IMG/VR virus record: IMGVR_UViG_3300006854_000011
Span: 1-46,859 of that record
DNA: 46,859 bases
Strand: one strand, 5' to 3'
Origin: a virus
Shown: piece after piece, positions 1 through 46,859 of the stretch
How positions within the stretch are numbered: the first letter of the stretch is position 1
How the letters are laid out: each line of letters begins with the position of its first letter
Made by a program: the position numbers and the translations under genes
The notes under the pieces: model-generated
Seen by the model: only the letters and a program-made list of their open reading frames with translations
Told to the model about the DNA's origin: nothing
The model's database searches: none

Positions 1-90
1 ACTCCTCCTCTCCGAGTTTAATTCTACTGGCTGGAAGCAAGAGACAGAGAAGCTACTTAAGCAAACTGGAAACGCGGCTGATTGGTCGCC
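1..90. repeat. Terminal direct repeat, left copy (contig closure)
   Basis: These 90 bases are identical to positions 46770-46859. The exonuclease reading frame that leaves the right end continues in frame here and stops at 190. This is most simply an assembly overlap of a circular or circularly permuted genome, not a biological terminal repeat. A true short terminal repeat cannot be excluded from sequence alone. Confidence 0.9.
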
Positions 91-2493: not shown

Positions 2494-3009
2494 GTGAGAA
2501 GAAAAACTTTTCTATCCGCAGTCGCGTTGATGTTCTTTGTCACCGGCTGTGCAGCCACGTCTCAGAACGTGAAGACTGTTGTGTTGCCCACCTCGAACAA
2601 GAGCATTGATGTTGTGCAACATCGCAGTGACGTGAAGTTCCTCGATTGCGGCACCCTCGTTGTGCTTCAGACGTACGACAGTGCTGGCAAACTTATCGAT
2701 TCTAAAGATGCCCATGGTGCTGCTTTGCATTGCGGAGCCCTCAATGCAGCCATCGCTGCTGGCGGTCGCGTAGGAGCTGCAGCTGCGGCACAAGCAGCCC
2801 GTAGCACTACCAGTAATGTTTTGAGCCAAGGACAGGTGCAGGGGCAGGCCGCTGTGTCAGTGTCCGAAGCCAACGCGCAAGGCGGGGCCGGGGGCAATGG
2901 TGGGGCTGGCGGTGCTGGAGGCCATGGCAACAACGGTGGCGGTAATGGCTCTGGCGACGGCACGAATCCCGGCACTGATCATCACCACGACAACGGCGAC
3001 AACAACTAA
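2494..3009 (+). CDS. Secreted lipoprotein with glycine-rich tail
   Basis: The GTG start follows a strong AAGGAG site. Residues 1-19 form a lipoprotein signal peptide: basic RRK, hydrophobic core, then the lipobox VTGC with Cys19. After a domain of about 80 residues with two cysteines, an Ala-rich stretch leads into a tail of Gly/Asn/Ser repeats (GGAGG type) ending in His/Asp/Asn. The product should be lipidated and exported, which is odd between polymerase and ligase genes. Phage lipoproteins of this kind can act in superinfection exclusion or envelope remodelling, but no specific family was recognised and function is unknown. Confidence 0.8.
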   Translation: MRRKTFLSAVALMFFVTGCAATSQNVKTVVLPTSNKSIDVVQHRSDVKFLDCGTLVVLQTYDSAGKLIDSKDAHGAALHCGALNAAIAAGGRVGAAAAAQAARSTTSNVLSQGQVQGQAAVSVSEANAQGGAGGNGGAGGAGGHGNNGGGNGSGDGTNPGTDHHHDNGDNN

Positions 3010-21998: not shown

Positions 21999-22334
21999 TT
22001 ACGCACTCGCAGGAATCACGGTGGCCTTCTGGTCGCAGTAGACGTATATCTTGCCGTGCGTGAGAGTGCTGATGATCAAACCCTTCACTTGGAACGAGGG
22101 CACGAAATCAGTGTAGTCTTGTGGATACGTAGGCACTCCCGTGCCGGTGGCCGTGATGCGTGCTTCCCAAATCACCTTTCCCGCCGAGTCTTTCACTACA
22201 GCTTGGTCGCCGTCTGCAATGTCGTTGTTATAGTCCACCCATCGAATGTTGGTGATGGTGAGGTAGGAACTGACGGCCACTGTAGCAGCTGCGGTGTCGA
22301 AGATGAGAGGATTCTGGTCAATTAAGTTGGACAT
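21999..22334 (-). CDS. Hypothetical beta-rich protein after the sugar cassette (111 aa)
   Basis: The start overlaps the cytidylyltransferase gene by 17 bases. Begins MSNLIDQNPLIFDTAAATVA. Beta strands are inferred (SSYLTITNIRWVDYNNDIAD, SAGKVIWEARITATGTG) and it ends in PASA. It could be a small virion or head-decoration protein. It is not obviously part of sugar synthesis. Confidence 0.7.
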   Translation of the reverse strand: MSNLIDQNPLIFDTAAATVAVSSYLTITNIRWVDYNNDIADGDQAVVKDSAGKVIWEARITATGTGVPTYPQDYTDFVPSFQVKGLIISTLTHGKIYVYCDQKATVIPASA

Positions 22335-23028
22335 TTCGTTCTCCTAAATATTTGATAACGTCTCTTGCGTTGAAGTTGGGATGCAGAGTTTCGTAAATTT
22401 CTTTCGTGAGAGCAAAGTCTTCAGCAGTGTCTACCGATAAGCTTAGCCCAGGGGCTCGAATATCTTCAGGACACTGCAGGGTCCGCACTCTCGCATTCTC
22501 AAAGGCCCACTTGTGGGGATGCTCTCGTAGATCCTTGCGGGTGAGGCTTCTATCAAGCCACTGCAGAAACCTCACATCATAAACCTCAGCACCAAAGCCT
22601 GCCGGATAACCATTTCCCAAAACGTCACGATCAAGGTTAGTGGTGAGAAAGTTCCAAACCCCAGGATCATAACTGTGATAAGAAACGATTCGCTCAACTT
22701 CATCACGATCGGTGAACGTGTTATCCCCAGGAATCCGCACCACAACATCAGCGTCCATAATGTCAGCCCCAATGCTAAATCTGTGTACGACATCTTCAGG
22801 ATCGCCTCGGTAGTCTAAAGTTTCGATGCCCAAGTCTCGGGCTGCGCCAAGCTGAATGCCGCCGTTGCTTTCGTGCGGGATGGCCAGGAGAATGTCGTGG
22901 AAGCAACGCATTTTCTTGATGCGGGAGAGCACGTGCCAAATCTGCGGCTTTCCGAGGATGAGCATCCCGTTCTTGCCAGGGAGCCGACAGTTGCCCATTC
23001 GGGCTTGGACAATGCACACCGTCCTCAT
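22318..23028 (-). CDS. SpsF/NeuA-like cytidylyltransferase (nucleotide-sugar activation)
   Basis: 236 aa. The N-terminal signature IVQARMGNCRLPGKN is the CTP-binding loop of the acylneuraminate/SpsF cytidylyltransferase superfamily, with the usual STRLPGK read as NCRLPGK. VVRIPGDNTFTDRDEV matches the conserved GDxPF.D metal site. Such enzymes activate a nonulosonic acid or related sugar with CTP. The ATG overlaps the NeuB stop (ATGA), so the two are coupled, supporting one pathway. The exact sugar is not determined. Confidence 0.85.
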   Translation of the reverse strand: MRTVCIVQARMGNCRLPGKNGMLILGKPQIWHVLSRIKKMRCFHDILLAIPHESNGGIQLGAARDLGIETLDYRGDPEDVVHRFSIGADIMDADVVVRIPGDNTFTDRDEVERIVSYHSYDPGVWNFLTTNLDRDVLGNGYPAGFGAEVYDVRFLQWLDRSLTRKDLREHPHKWAFENARVRTLQCPEDIRAPGLSLSVDTAEDFALTKEIYETLHPNFNARDVIKYLGERNVQLN

Positions 23029-23918
23029 TTTAGGGGCTCCTGCTGTGCGCCGGTTAGGTTATTCTGTTTGCCCCGTAGCCTCTCTATGTCTTTCTTCTCG
23101 CACTCCTGCACTCGTATCTCGTCAGATCCTCTGGCCTGCTCGAAGGCGCGGATCTCGCGCACAAGGAGCTGGAGGCCGTGAGGTTCCACACTGGCCGCTT
23201 GATCAGAACCTTTCATGCTCCGGTCCAAGGTGATGTGCCTCTCGACAACCCTAGCCCCCATAGCCACAGCACAGAGAGTAGTCCACAATCCTGATTCATG
23301 TCCGCTGTAGCCGATCGCGGCTTCAGGGAAATTGTAGTGGAGCGTGTGAAGTCTCCGTAGATGCAAATCTTCGATCTTCGCGGGATATGTGCTCGTGCAG
23401 ACGAGCATGGCTATCTCGTCTGTGCCTCGGCTGAGAATGCTGTACGCCTGGTGAATCTCTTTCAACGTGCTCATGCCGGTGCTCATCACCACTGGCTTCT
23501 TAAAGCTGGCAATGCATCTAAGCAGCTCGGGGTTCGTCACAGAGGCCGAAGCCACTTTGATGAACGGAGCACCGAGAGCGTCTAGCTTGTGAGAAGCGTT
23601 GATGTCCCAAGGAGAGGCCGAAAAGAGGATGTTCCGCTTCTCGCAATGCGCAACTATCTCCTGGTAATCTTGCGGAGACAGCTCGATGCGCTGTCTATAT
23701 GCAAGATAGGTCATTCTCTCTCCCCAGGGCGTGTCGCGCTCCACGTCCCATAGCTCGGGCGGAAGGCTCATGTGTGGTGTGCGGATCTGAAACTTAGCTG
23801 CGTCACAGCCTGCACCAGCGGCCACATCAATCAGCTGCTTGGCAATGTCTACGCTGCCGTTGTGGTTTATGCCGATCTCCGCGATGATGAAGGTGTGGTT
23901 TTTAGGAAACTGAAACAT
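23025..23918 (-). CDS. neuB: NeuB-like nonulosonic acid synthase lacking the SAF domain
   Basis: Condenses phosphoenolpyruvate with a hexose derivative (ManNAc type) to a nine-carbon sialic-type acid. TIM-barrel motifs are clear: IIAEIGINHNGS (11-22), KFQ (42-44), STGMST (146-151), IGYSGHESG (202-210), VVERHITLD (224-232) and KGSDQAASVEP (236-246). At 297 aa it stops about where the C-terminal antifreeze-like (SAF) domain should begin; family members are usually near 340-350 aa. In known NeuB dimers the SAF domain closes over the partner's active site, so its loss is notable. The preceding methyltransferase/DUF115 gene overlaps it by 17 bases. Confidence 0.9.
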   Translation of the reverse strand: MFQFPKNHTFIIAEIGINHNGSVDIAKQLIDVAAGAGCDAAKFQIRTPHMSLPPELWDVERDTPWGERMTYLAYRQRIELSPQDYQEIVAHCEKRNILFSASPWDINASHKLDALGAPFIKVASASVTNPELLRCIASFKKPVVMSTGMSTLKEIHQAYSILSRGTDEIAMLVCTSTYPAKIEDLHLRRLHTLHYNFPEAAIGYSGHESGLWTTLCAVAMGARVVERHITLDRSMKGSDQAASVEPHGLQLLVREIRAFEQARGSDEIRVQECEKKDIERLRGKQNNLTGAQQEPLK

Positions 23919-25626
23919 CTTCAGCCTCCTCGTGGAACTGACAATCCCACATGTGTTTGATCAAGCTGTCTCCGTAAAATTCAATGCTCTTCAAGCAGCC
24001 CATGCTGTGCCCAACAGAAATCATATCGAGCGTTTGATTTGCGAAGTCGATGAAGGAAGGCGTGGTGAGCACTGTTTCGCCTTTGATCTCCACTTCACAA
24101 AAGTTCTGCGGCAATGATGGGCCGGCGATGCCATCTGCATGTGTCTGCTTCTCGCTAGAGAACATCAGGTCGAGCCCGAAGACATGAAAGTTGTTGAAGC
24201 CAAGAGACATACCCACAGGAATGGTGCTGATCGCCACACTACCCCCACTATTGATAACCCCGTCAGTGGTGTAGCCATGCTTTTGGCGCAGCTCTTTCGT
24301 CTTAATGTTGTCCTGGCTGCTAAAAACGTAGCACTTATGGTCTTTAAGCTTCTCGAAGATGCTTGGCCGCGAGACAAGAGCCAAAATGTGTGTGGTGAGA
24401 GGGTGCGGCTTTTCAAAACACACTTCTTGCTCCACAGAGCAGTCCAAGCTGATCACGTATTCCGGCACGATGCCGTGCGACAGGAGGAATGGGTACATGC
24501 GGGCAATGCAGATGATTGGCACCTTCGTGTTGTGCAGCTCTCGAATTGCCTCAAGCTGTCCATCCACGCTTGGTCCACCCCCCACGCAAATCACATCGCC
24601 GCTACTCTTGCCCCACAGCTCTGAAAGATCGGGATACTTCATCGACAAATTCTTATCGATGTTCTCGAATAGGAGCCGGCGAGGGAATTTGCACACGCCT
24701 CGGAAACGAGGCATCTTGCGTGCTTCATCCCCACGCTTGAACAAATGGTCCGTGATGTACTCCACCCACTCTTTCGGCTTGTCCACCTGAAAGTATTCAA
24801 ACTTGTTGAGCGTCCAGAACGAATCGCATTCCTCATCTGAATAGTTTTCAGTGAAGCCTAGCTCTGTCATCACATACTCCAGCGTGCGCTGGCAAAACTG
24901 GTAGGTGTGGGCGATCTGAAAATACCAATCTATGTTGTTCCGAAAGAAACCTGGTGTATAGACGTACAGATGTGCATCAGGAGCCATAATCTCCTTAATG
25001 CGCTTCACTTCATTGAGGTCAGTGAAGTGTTCGATCACGTCCTTCAGGATGATGAAATCGGCCTTCACGCCTTTCGCAATCAGCTCGTCAATGCTGTTGA
25101 CAATCGTATGACCCTGCGCACTGCCATAGAGGGCCGCATCCACATCCCACTCCACGCCATACGTCTCAGCCCCTGCTTCCTTGAAGGGCTCAAGCATGCC
25201 GCCGACAAAGCAGCCGTAGTCCACCACCACCTTTGGTGTGGGAATGTCGAAATCGGCAAGCTGCTGCTGCAGCCTTCGTCCGTTGTGGCTCTGAATCCGG
25301 TAATGCGTGAAGAAATCGCCAGTCTCATCAGCCGTGGCCCAACTAGGGGCATAGTTGATGTAGCGGTATTCGTTATTATAAAACTTTTCGTACGATTCTT
25401 TGGTCATGCGCGGATTCGCACGCATGAGAGCGCACTCATTGCAAATGACATAGCGATGCGGAATGCCATTACGCTCCAAGAGCATTAGCTCTCGGTCATC
25501 ATCTGCTCCACAGAAGCACTGCGTCTCTTCCATCGGGTACTCACCCGATTGAAGCTTGTTCGTTACCGATTGAATATACGAAAGGGCAAGATGGGCTCGC
25601 CCTTTCGCATCTTTTTTGTACTTCAT
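23902..25626 (-). CDS. Fusion of SAM methyltransferase and DUF115 (Maf/MptE-like) domain
   Basis: 574 aa, two domains. Residues 37-66 hold a zinc-like CFCG...CNEC site, followed by a class I methyltransferase: VVVDYGCFVGGML (133-145, SAM motif I) and ILKDVIEHF (193-201). Residues 345-560 form a DUF115 domain: VICVGGGPSVDGQLEAI, then YVISLD and a later NSGGSVAISTIPVGMSLGF. DUF115 proteins include Maf enzymes linked to transferring nonulosonic acids onto flagellin. It directly precedes NeuB and a cytidylyltransferase, so it may methylate and/or transfer the sugar. Glycosyltransferase activity is inferred. Confidence 0.85.
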   Translation of the reverse strand: MKYKKDAKGRAHLALSYIQSVTNKLQSGEYPMEETQCFCGADDDRELMLLERNGIPHRYVICNECALMRANPRMTKESYEKFYNNEYRYINYAPSWATADETGDFFTHYRIQSHNGRRLQQQLADFDIPTPKVVVDYGCFVGGMLEPFKEAGAETYGVEWDVDAALYGSAQGHTIVNSIDELIAKGVKADFIILKDVIEHFTDLNEVKRIKEIMAPDAHLYVYTPGFFRNNIDWYFQIAHTYQFCQRTLEYVMTELGFTENYSDEECDSFWTLNKFEYFQVDKPKEWVEYITDHLFKRGDEARKMPRFRGVCKFPRRLLFENIDKNLSMKYPDLSELWGKSSGDVICVGGGPSVDGQLEAIRELHNTKVPIICIARMYPFLLSHGIVPEYVISLDCSVEQEVCFEKPHPLTTHILALVSRPSIFEKLKDHKCYVFSSQDNIKTKELRQKHGYTTDGVINSGGSVAISTIPVGMSLGFNNFHVFGLDLMFSSEKQTHADGIAGPSLPQNFCEVEIKGETVLTTPSFIDFANQTLDMISVGHSMGCLKSIEFYGDSLIKHMWDCQFHEEAEDVSVS

Positions 25627-43912: not shown

Positions 43913-44106
43913 CCTTGTTCGATCTTGTGCAGGGCATGGTGGATCAGCGTCTCCCACAGTTTGAAGGAGCTGGCATCAAGCGAGAGGGAGCGCAGGTGTC
44001 CTTTGGACGAGGGAGAGGCAAGTTCTTTCTCTGCCAAGCCCTGTACGTGGAGAAGAGAAAAAACAAAGTGGTAATCAAAAACACACCAACCGCAGGAGGA
44101 TTATGA
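43909..44106 (+). CDS. Small hypothetical protein (65 aa)
   Basis: ATG overlaps the preceding stop (ATGA). Begins MTLFDLVQGMVDQRLPQFEG and has a basic beta segment (GRGRGKFFLCQALYVEKRKN). Ends in overlap with the next gene. Unknown function. Confidence 0.65.
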   Translation: MTLFDLVQGMVDQRLPQFEGAGIKREGAQVSFGRGRGKFFLCQALYVEKRKNKVVIKNTPTAGGL

Positions 44107-44546
44107 TCATGGGTACAAAATTTGAAAACGCGTTCAGTCACAACAGCAGCGCCAACGTGATTATGAAAGCTCTGGCCGTGGTGGAGGAGTTTCCGTACCG
44201 CACGACAGCGGAGATGGCTTCGAAGATCAACGCCAACCAGCTCACCGGCGAACAGCTGCATAAAGCTCTCTCGCGTTTAGTGAAGGCAAACAAGATTCAT
44301 AAAGTGAAAGCTCGTCGCTGCACTATCACTGGCAAGCTAGCCACAACCTGGGCTCCTATTTACACGGTGTTGCTTCTCCTTTGTTTCGCCTTCCCTGCCT
44401 TTGCCAATGAGGGGCATAGCGATCACTTCGACTGTGGGCATGTTGGCCGCGACTGCCGCACATCTGTGTCCGTACCGGAGCCGTCTGGAGCAGCTCTCCT
44501 TGGCCTTGGCCTGGTTGCAGTTGGGCGTTTTCTTCGCAGGCGATAA
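44103..44546 (+). CDS. Winged-HTH protein with internal signal segment and PEP-CTERM tail
   Basis: 147 aa; start ATG 44103 or 44109, the latter better spaced from AGGAGG. Residues about 15-80 form a winged-HTH-like region (TTAEMASKINANQLTGEQLH, ALSRLVKANKIHKVKARR). Residues 86-102 are a hydrophobic signal-like segment ending FAFPAFANEG. Residues 124-147 are a PEP-CTERM sorting signal: VPEPSGAALLGLGLVAVGRF followed by LRRR. Such tails are recognised by exosortase, cleaved and retained in the membrane. The combination in a phage is unusual. The alternative is a false match to hydrophobic sequence, but the VPEP, hydrophobic stretch and RRR order are all correct. Confidence 0.8.
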   Translation: MIMGTKFENAFSHNSSANVIMKALAVVEEFPYRTTAEMASKINANQLTGEQLHKALSRLVKANKIHKVKARRCTITGKLATTWAPIYTVLLLLCFAFPAFANEGHSDHFDCGHVGRDCRTSVSVPEPSGAALLGLGLVAVGRFLRRR

Positions 44547-44707
44547 TGGCTAAAGACTCGCCTCGGCAGATACCGATGGGAACCTGCGGCTGCAAGATCA
44601 CTCGCATCAAGCGCGGACGCAAGTTCCATTGGTACTGCCAAGACACACACGGATACGAAACCAAGCTGGAGAGGATTGCTCTAGCTGTAAGGGGAAAAGC
44701 GAAATGA
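44546..44707 (+). CDS. Basic 53-aa protein with cysteines
   Basis: ATG overlaps the previous TAA (TAATG). IPMGTCGCKITRIKRGRKFH continues to a third cysteine (WYCQDTHG); mixed basic. Overlaps the next ATG. Possibly a small zinc-binding protein; unknown. Confidence 0.6.
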   Translation: MAKDSPRQIPMGTCGCKITRIKRGRKFHWYCQDTHGYETKLERIALAVRGKAK

Positions 44708-44919
44708 GGGACTATACAGAGCTACAAAAAAGAGTGTACCACACCTTCCTGAAAAACGGATGGATTACAGCAGACGAAGCGGCAACCTATCTCGGCCTAA
44801 GCGTGCTCGCCGTTCGTCCTCGTGTCACCGAGTTGAAGAACCAAGGCAAGCTGGTGCTCACGGGGTTGCGCCGACGCAATGCCAGCGGCATCTATGCCCG
44901 CGTGTTGAGGGCTGCATAA
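44704..44919 (+). CDS. Small winged-HTH protein (71 aa)
   Basis: ATG coupled to the previous stop. LQKRVYHTFLKNGWITADEA and TYLGLSVLAVRPRVTELKNQ form a DNA-binding wHTH with a wing (GKLVLTGLRRRNASGIYARV). Immediately before the primase gene, so it could be a replication or transcription factor. Confidence 0.75.
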   Translation: MRDYTELQKRVYHTFLKNGWITADEAATYLGLSVLAVRPRVTELKNQGKLVLTGLRRRNASGIYARVLRAA

Positions 44920-44920
44920 A

Positions 44921-45553
44921 GTGATTTATCGCCACGAGGAACAAGAGAAGCACTTGAAGCTGAAGTGGGACGGCTACCGTCCCTCTCTGCCCACCTGCAG
45001 GCCAGAGCTGTGGGAAGACTTCGCTGAGTATCTTGTGGCGAGGAATTTGAATCCCGAGCTGGCAAGATACAACGGATGGTATCCGACGAAGTACAAGGGC
45101 TGCGATCGTATTCTCATTCCCTGCTCCAATCGCGAGGGCGTGCCCTACTTCCAAGCGCGAGCCATGACCGATGACGTGCAGCTTCGCTATGCCTCCCCTG
45201 CTGCTCCTCGTGACGATAGCATTGTCATCGTGTGGCCGGAGAGCAAGCTGAAAGTCAAAGGCTGTGTGGTGATTGAGGGGCCGATGGACGCTCTGGCTGC
45301 GGCAGAGTTTGATTATGTGGGCATTGCCTTGATGGGCAATCAGCCCACGGACGCAGTGATCGAGCATCTTTCGGGCTTCGTGCGCAGCTTTCAGCCAGTG
45401 TGGATTGTGCCGGATGCTGACTCCCTGCACATGGGGCCTAATGTGCTGTGTGCTCTCGTGCAGCATTCCCTGAGTGGCATGATCCTAACCCCGCCCAAGA
45501 AAGACTTGGCGGCTATGAGTCGCAAGGAAAGAAGGAGTTTTTTATATGCGTGA
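44921..45553 (+). CDS. TOPRIM-domain primase-like protein
   Basis: 210 aa, GTG start. TOPRIM motifs: CVVIEGPMDALAAAEFDYVG (glutamate and the following aspartate) and VWIVPDADS (DxD). The N-terminal region (GCDRILIPCSNREGVPYFQA, RAMTDDVQLRYASP) resembles the RNA-polymerase core of DnaG/phage primases. Smaller than DnaG and lacking an obvious zinc-finger domain, it likely makes primers for the DnaB-like helicase complex at 5055. Confidence 0.85.
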   Translation: MIYRHEEQEKHLKLKWDGYRPSLPTCRPELWEDFAEYLVARNLNPELARYNGWYPTKYKGCDRILIPCSNREGVPYFQARAMTDDVQLRYASPAAPRDDSIVIVWPESKLKVKGCVVIEGPMDALAAAEFDYVGIALMGNQPTDAVIEHLSGFVRSFQPVWIVPDADSLHMGPNVLCALVQHSLSGMILTPPKKDLAAMSRKERRSFLYA

Positions 45554-45809
45554 AACATTCCATGTGCGCAAGTCGTACTTTAAGAACAAGTGTCGAGGAA
45601 TGGGCAGCAGCTGCCCGGTGGCACGGGCAATCCTCGCCAACGGCTACACGAACGTCTTTGTGGCGGACGGTGCCGCCTTTGAGACTTTCGACGGTAGGAA
45701 GTTCTGGTTCGATCTTCCGAAAAGGGTGAGGGCTTTCATTGGTCGCTTCGACAACAAGAGCATTCCCTTGAACACGTTCAAACCATTCTCCTTCACGCTC
45801 AATGTGTGA
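45546..45809 (+). CDS. Conserved-looking hypothetical protein (87 aa)
   Basis: ATG overlaps the primase end. Begins MRETFHVRKSYFKNKCRGMG, then SSCPVARAILANGYTNVFVA and ends with a beta segment (FKPFSFTL). Pattern RCRG.SSCP.A seems recurrent in phage proteins. Function unknown; a replication-operon member. Confidence 0.7.
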   Translation: MRETFHVRKSYFKNKCRGMGSSCPVARAILANGYTNVFVADGAAFETFDGRKFWFDLPKRVRAFIGRFDNKSIPLNTFKPFSFTLNV

Positions 45810-46331: not shown

Positions 46332-46859
46332 AGCGTTTGGCACATATCATCCGCGAGCCGTGCTGCTTGGAGGATTCGAGCTTGAAGACAAAATCATTGC
46401 CGACTTTGCACGATTTAATAAGAAGCAACTACAACGAGCAAGAGTTGGCCTACCTGCGCCGGGCAGTAAGCGCATTGGGTACGATACAGAATACCTGCCA
46501 GATGGCGGATTACTTACGATCGGAGTTGGCACACCTAATGAAGCCGCAGCCTTCGAAGTGTCAGACAAGGCCGGTATCCAGAAAGCGAAGAGGGTAATCA
46601 AGCATGCTCAAACTCTTATCGGGCACAGTGTCACGGGTGACCTTGATCAGCTCGTTAAATTGGGCCTTGCGAAGGAAACATGGCTCAAAGGCATTGAAGT
46701 GCGAGATTCTTTTCTTCTTGCTCGAATGGTGGATGAGAACCGGGGGAAGGGTGGCTATGGACTCGAAGCACTCCTCCTCTCCGAGTTTAATTCTACTGGC
46801 TGGAAGCAAGAGACAGAGAAGCTACTTAAGCAAACTGGAAACGCGGCTGATTGGTCGCC
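46273..46859 (+). CDS. DnaQ-like 3'-5' exonuclease, N-terminal part (continues at position 2)
   Basis: ATG 46273, overlapping the UDG-like gene. With the 3' part (2-190) it encodes 228 aa. Exo I motif D71-T-E73 in IGYDTEYLPDGG, exo II HSVTGDLDQL (118-127), then VRDSFLLARMVDE and, beyond the junction, D206. This is the proofreading exonuclease type of PolA but as its own gene. Four or five small genes separate it from the polymerase at 830. Confidence 0.85.
   Translation, partial: MRAKRTSPKKEEKKFSFKAKAFGTYHPRAVLLGGFELEDKIIADFARFNKKQLQRARVGLPAPGSKRIGYDTEYLPDGGLLTIGVGTPNEAAAFEVSDKAGIQKAKRVIKHAQTLIGHSVTGDLDQLVKLGLAKETWLKGIEVRDSFLLARMVDENRGKGGYGLEALLLSEFNSTGWKQETEKLLKQTGNAADWS
46770..46859. repeat. 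Terminal direct repeat, right copy
   Basis: Identical to positions 1-90. The coding phase of the exonuclease gene continues unbroken from this copy into the start of the window. It marks circular closure of the contig. Confidence 0.9.

Follow-up and report, generated by a model that had tools for sequence, protein, structure and literature searches.

A phage winged-helix gene that appears to run in frame into a PEP-CTERM sorting signal

How does a DNA-binding type of domain come to share one reading frame with a signal for the bacterial exosortase, and can such a frame in a phage be taken at face value? The question is raised by an open frame at 44103–44546 (plus strand, 147 aa) in IMGVR_UViG_3300006854_000011, a metagenome contig from environmental DNA, whose full 46,859 bases are the window analysed here. 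The frame is open and reads as a sequence-only reading had first described it, with a winged helix-turn-helix (wHTH) at its start and a PEP-CTERM signal at its end. A 90-base direct repeat occupies the two termini of the window (1–90 and 46770–46859), and an exonuclease-like frame continues through the joined ends, so that the genome is probably complete, at about 46.8 kb as a circle. These ends give the record the look of a whole genome that is circularly permuted; among its genes, those of terminase, portal and major head protein can be recognised. In the virion gene region, at 22318–25626, genes resembling NeuB, a CMP-sugar transferase, a methyltransferase and DUF115 were noticed by eye, which suggests a phage-carried sugar cassette of nonulosonate type; a PHROGs search with these genes gave no match at E 0.001. 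Assigning a host through relatives of the terminase and polymerase was tried and set aside, as identities were below 40% among the relatives listed and their hosts were mixed, and the phage genome holds no tRNA genes as a host clue.

The gene in question lies in the rightward early region. Upstream of it are a resolvase (PF00239), a sigma/HTH-like protein and a 65-aa ORF; downstream follow a small ORF, a second wHTH, a Toprim/primase-like protein, a UDG-family (uracil-DNA-glycosylase-like) protein and the exonuclease-like frame, with a polymerase gene also in the neighbourhood. Its parts and nearest neighbours are as follows.

44103–44546, plus strand: fused gene, consisting of wHTH, hydrophobic/signal-like segment, short predicted periplasmic stretch and PEP-CTERM tail; start probably at 44109, giving 145 aa.
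44109–44357, plus strand: winged-helix domain, orthologue of a stand-alone wHTH of 81–87 aa in related phages; weak phrog_1123 match.
44349–44405, plus strand: hydrophobic segment WAPIYTVLLLLCFAFPAFA, a putative signal or anchor by hydropathy, with an A-X-A site between AFA and NEG where cleavage is predicted from sequence alone.
44361–44363, plus strand: TAC codon (Tyr87), at the alignment position where the homologous wHTH genes have their stop.
44406–44471, plus strand: short stretch of 22 residues with two Cys, NEGHSDHFDCGHVGRDCRTSVS, predicted to be periplasmic; no relatives of it were found.
44472–44543, plus strand: PEP-CTERM tail, VPEPS-hydrophobic-RRR, recognised with TIGR02595, PF07589 and an independent model.
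44546–44707, plus strand: small Cys-containing ORF of 53 aa, its start overlapping the fusion stop; absent from the syntenic relative and without a match within the loci retrieved from relatives.
44704–44919, plus strand: another small wHTH, assigned to the phrog_1123 family and separated from the fused gene by the 53-aa ORF; the related phages lack it at this position, and five other viral contigs hold relatives of it.
44921–45553, plus strand: Toprim/primase-like protein, right border of a variable slot; 65% identity to a relative.

The tail comprises residues 124–147, VPEPSGAALLGLGLVAVGRFLRRR, and the profile searches indicate that these last 24 residues are indeed a PEP-CTERM signal, as had been proposed. 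The earlier reading had named a missing score against the PEP-CTERM model as the result that would speak against it; TIGR02595 scores the protein at 18.0 bits (cutoff 16) and the genome, in a six-frame search, at 21.9 bits, and PF07589 reaches 20.6 bits, marginally below its cutoff of 20.7. An independent model was built from 29 non-redundant viral PEP-CTERM tails, none of them from the window, and scored on the C-termini of 2,054 ORFs of the window and its relatives, with 20,000 shuffles of the window tail as control. The window protein obtained 35.9 bits, the next-best ORF 10.1 and the best shuffle 15.9, and the match is therefore not due to chance. The near-invariant PEP motif opens the domain (VPEPS, residues 124–128), and the hydrophobic stretch, about 14 residues long in this class, and the basic cluster stand at the extreme C-terminus (GAALLGLGLVAVGRFL-RRR-stop). 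An N-terminal signal peptide is found in about 97% of PEP-CTERM members (PMC1569441); here none precedes the wHTH, and the signal-like segment is internal and lies behind it. Since an N-terminal signal is usual but not absolute, the claim made is that this protein carries a PEP-CTERM tail, not that it is a standard PEP-CTERM protein. The hydrophobic segment, earlier located at residues 86–102, is present but is better placed at about 83–101; its hydropathy rises to 1.89, and it ends in AFPAFA followed by NEG, a signal-peptidase-like site read by eye rather than with a trained predictor.

The other end of the protein is, in the predicted structure, a winged-helix fold. With the tail removed, the AlphaFold model shows helix-helix-helix-strand-strand at a mean pLDDT of 80, in line with the winged-HTH-like N-terminus first suggested and with the stand-alone wHTH orthologues; the full-length model including the tail is poor (pLDDT 45), and no structure is claimed for the fusion. 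The top PDB matches are mostly wHTH proteins of PadR, MarR and Fur type (best E 0.014, none below E 0.001), and DNA binding by this domain is putative, a reading of the fold only.

The related phages offer a framework for understanding how the two parts may have met. Four related viral contigs from two lineages carry the wHTH orthologue as a separate gene at the same place, flanked by the same genes as in the window and with 51, 44 and 43% identity. One of them, L014 (IMGVR_UViG_3300043406_000091), is 85% identical to the window phage in TerL and 65% in Toprim, and has a stand-alone 81-aa wHTH with Toprim directly next to it; the other three (L094, L095 and L096) have an 87-aa wHTH, and this gene is nearly the same in all three. 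Because the relatives end in WATW-stop or WAVL-stop where the window continues with WAPIY, their stop aligns with TAC at 44361–44363, a single base change from a stop codon, and their wHTH ends exactly where the hydrophobic segment of the window begins. The suggestion that two functions were merged into one frame is thus well supported by the relatives, and no frameshift separates the parts.

What follows the wHTH differs between these phages. The space before Toprim is empty in L014, holds an exported lipoprotein in L094–L096, whose gene starts within the wHTH stop (ATAATG), and holds the PEP-CTERM part, the 53-aa ORF and the second wHTH in the window; given these differing contents, it is a variable slot, and the lipoprotein overlapping the wHTH stop indicates that the slot carries envelope cargo there too. 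A lipoprotein-like homologue is encoded in the window at 2494–3009 (FFVTGCAA, glycine-rich tail), and this gene follows the polymerase both in the window and in another contig, L020, but comes directly after the wHTH in L094–L096. Separately, a small protein at 45546–45809 is single-copy in the window, and translations viewed by eye show three tandem, diverged copies of it at L014:2373–3199. Searches with the wHTH family returned just the four viral contigs, none of the four fused, and nothing in bacterial genomes; the full fusion protein had no relative in viral contigs, genome contigs or phage records, the tail alone as query found none either, and a PEP-CTERM scan of the relatives' records, several of which are fragments, gave no match. 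With no other phage turning up that shares the fusion, conservation offers no support for it.

The start signals bear on whether the tail could be made by itself. Pairing with the 16S tail is predicted at −9.7 and −10.3 kcal/mol for 44103 and 44109, respectively, whereas none of the internal starts in frame, GTG 44367 among them, pairs more strongly than −2.4 kcal/mol; with a strong Shine-Dalgarno solely at the first two positions, the wHTH protein is most likely the only product that contains the tail. The separate start near 44367 that had been suggested is thus not borne out, as it lacks a Shine-Dalgarno. The AGGAGG motif precedes ATG 44109 by about 9 nt and 44103 by only 3 nt, and the homologues begin at the position equivalent to M3; on these two grounds the start is probably M3 at 44109 and not the originally read 44103. 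The fusion stop shares bases with the next ATG (TAATG), in the manner of a coupled operon. For synonymous codons, the tail half scores 0.116 and resembles the genes of the phage, whose blocks average 0.106 ± 0.085; the plain codon score of this half is −0.02, a low value that membrane composition or a recent acquisition could account for.

These data also bear on the possibility that an assembly or sequencing error, such as a wrong base or an indel at TAC 44361–44363, joined a wHTH gene to a separate small secreted PEP-CTERM gene. The relatives' stop falls at exactly this codon, L094–L096 have two overlapping genes at these positions, and the source is a metagenome contig. Against this, a separate downstream gene would have neither an ATG nor a Shine-Dalgarno, a start at GTG 44367 would leave a 13-residue signal without a basic start, and a second contig, L002, is in 99.99% agreement with 11 kb of the window away from the junction, so that the assembly quality looks good. 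Fragments from other samples include none that spans the fusion region. On balance, an error of this kind is unlikely, and since related phages keep the wHTH as a separate gene, what the window holds seems to be a genuine, unusual fusion of genes.

The available data are most compatible with a model, which we consider somewhat better than even, in which a conserved phage wHTH was fused in frame, by loss of its stop, to a short exported PEP-CTERM cargo, an envelope-directed accessory that an inner-membrane anchor would offer to the host exosortase. Specifically, the stop codon of the early-region wHTH gene would have been lost, letting the frame run into the exported segment, and the product would be made from the wHTH start only. 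By positive-inside reasoning and the published PEP-CTERM model (PMC1569441), residues 83–101 would insert in the inner membrane with the wHTH in the cytoplasm, the 22-residue, two-Cys stretch would lie outside, and the PEP motif would be placed at the outer (periplasmic) face of the inner membrane, followed by the second hydrophobic stretch and RRR. The host exosortase would act at the PEP motif; the phage itself encodes no exosortase gene. Should signal peptidase cut after AFA, the wHTH would stay behind as a membrane protein and a PEP-CTERM peptide of fewer than 50 residues would be freed and sorted. Given the lipoprotein neighbour in the relatives, the likeliest role is that of a moron-like, envelope-directed accessory product riding on expression of the wHTH gene; products of this kind would typically act in superinfection exclusion or in altering the envelope.

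The membrane-tethered DNA-binding protein, anchored by the host's exosortase system, that the sequence-only reading envisaged could also be the functional form. Its outer end would then be handled by the exosortase, coupling the wHTH to surface sorting, or a short phage peptide would be released into the host envelope or matrix; we regard this as unlikely. Less probable again is that the tail serves as a membrane anchor only, tethering phage DNA near the replication genes, with the PEP motif incidental. Two hydrophobic segments would give a hairpin, and the genes around it do include those for Toprim, uracil-DNA-glycosylase-like, exonuclease and polymerase proteins. The specificity of the PEP-CTERM match goes beyond hydrophobicity, however, and tethering is not a conserved need, as the wHTH of the relatives is soluble; membrane tethering of phage DNA, should it occur, would be new to this lineage. 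We judge internal initiation highly improbable: a secreted short form would start at GTG 44304 or 44280 beside the full-length form, with basic residues of the wing as n-region, and MKARRCTITGKLATTWAPIYTVLLLLCFAFPAFA does resemble a long signal peptide by eye, but Shine-Dalgarno pairing is weak at both (−2.0 and −0.1 kcal/mol, respectively). Finally, it is scarcely credible that an out-of-gene hydrophobic sequence, read through after stop loss, mimics PEP-CTERM by chance, as a single occurrence and the low plain codon score might suggest, when the best of 20,000 shuffles stays at 15.9 bits against 35.9, the stop codon follows the motif directly, as a PEP-CTERM signal demands, and the AFA signal-like site accompanies it.

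If the exosortase-directed fusion preferred here is real, it would mean that a phage borrows the exosortase pathway by joining a DNA-binding domain to a surface-sorting signal, and it predicts an exosortase-carrying host. It would further indicate that a phage regulator can acquire an envelope signal through loss of a stop codon, and the exosortase reaction, so far poorly tested, would gain a substrate that is small and defined. The locus also points to a variable slot for envelope-protein cargo beside the primase gene of these phages.

Among known systems, the protein resembles the substrates of PEP-CTERM/exosortase (EpsH) sorting (Haft et al. 2006, PMC1569441; TIGR02595/PF07589) in its VPEP, its hydrophobic stretch and its C-terminal basic cluster, and in having a signal-like segment ahead of the tail with no other transmembrane segment between. 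It differs from them in the roughly 82-residue, cytoplasmic-type wHTH that precedes this segment, in being phage-encoded and in the shortness of its exported part. The stand-alone wHTH of phrog_1123 type in L014 and L094–L096 is orthologous and has the same neighbours, and stops after the wHTH without a PEP-CTERM tail. A membrane-anchored DNA-binding protein has a precedent in p16.7 of phi29, which acts in replication; the likeness lies in the possible membrane tethering of a DNA-binding domain, the order of domains is different, and p16.7 is not known to carry a PEP-CTERM.

The remark that PEP-CTERM proteins are rarely reported in phages holds for the open-access literature, in which no paper discussing the two together was found, yet such tails are present in viral sequence. 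A scan of IMG/VR viral contigs with one strict DNA pattern, VPEPxxxxLLGLG, gave 71 stretches, and in 48 contigs the pattern lies in the last 22–34 residues of an ORF; some of these ORFs adjoin terminase and portal genes, and these tails, too, are phage-borne. Many of the roughly 48 contigs hold one recurrent exported family of GQTSGTNTVTATDNGT type, which looks like common phage cargo. The complete viral proteins inspected are of the ordinary exported type with their own N-terminal signal, unlike the fusion in the window, and no wHTH fusion was seen among the viral-contig ORFs inspected. Taken together, PEP-CTERM on viral contigs already exists, and it is the fusion to a wHTH, in one genome, that is new.
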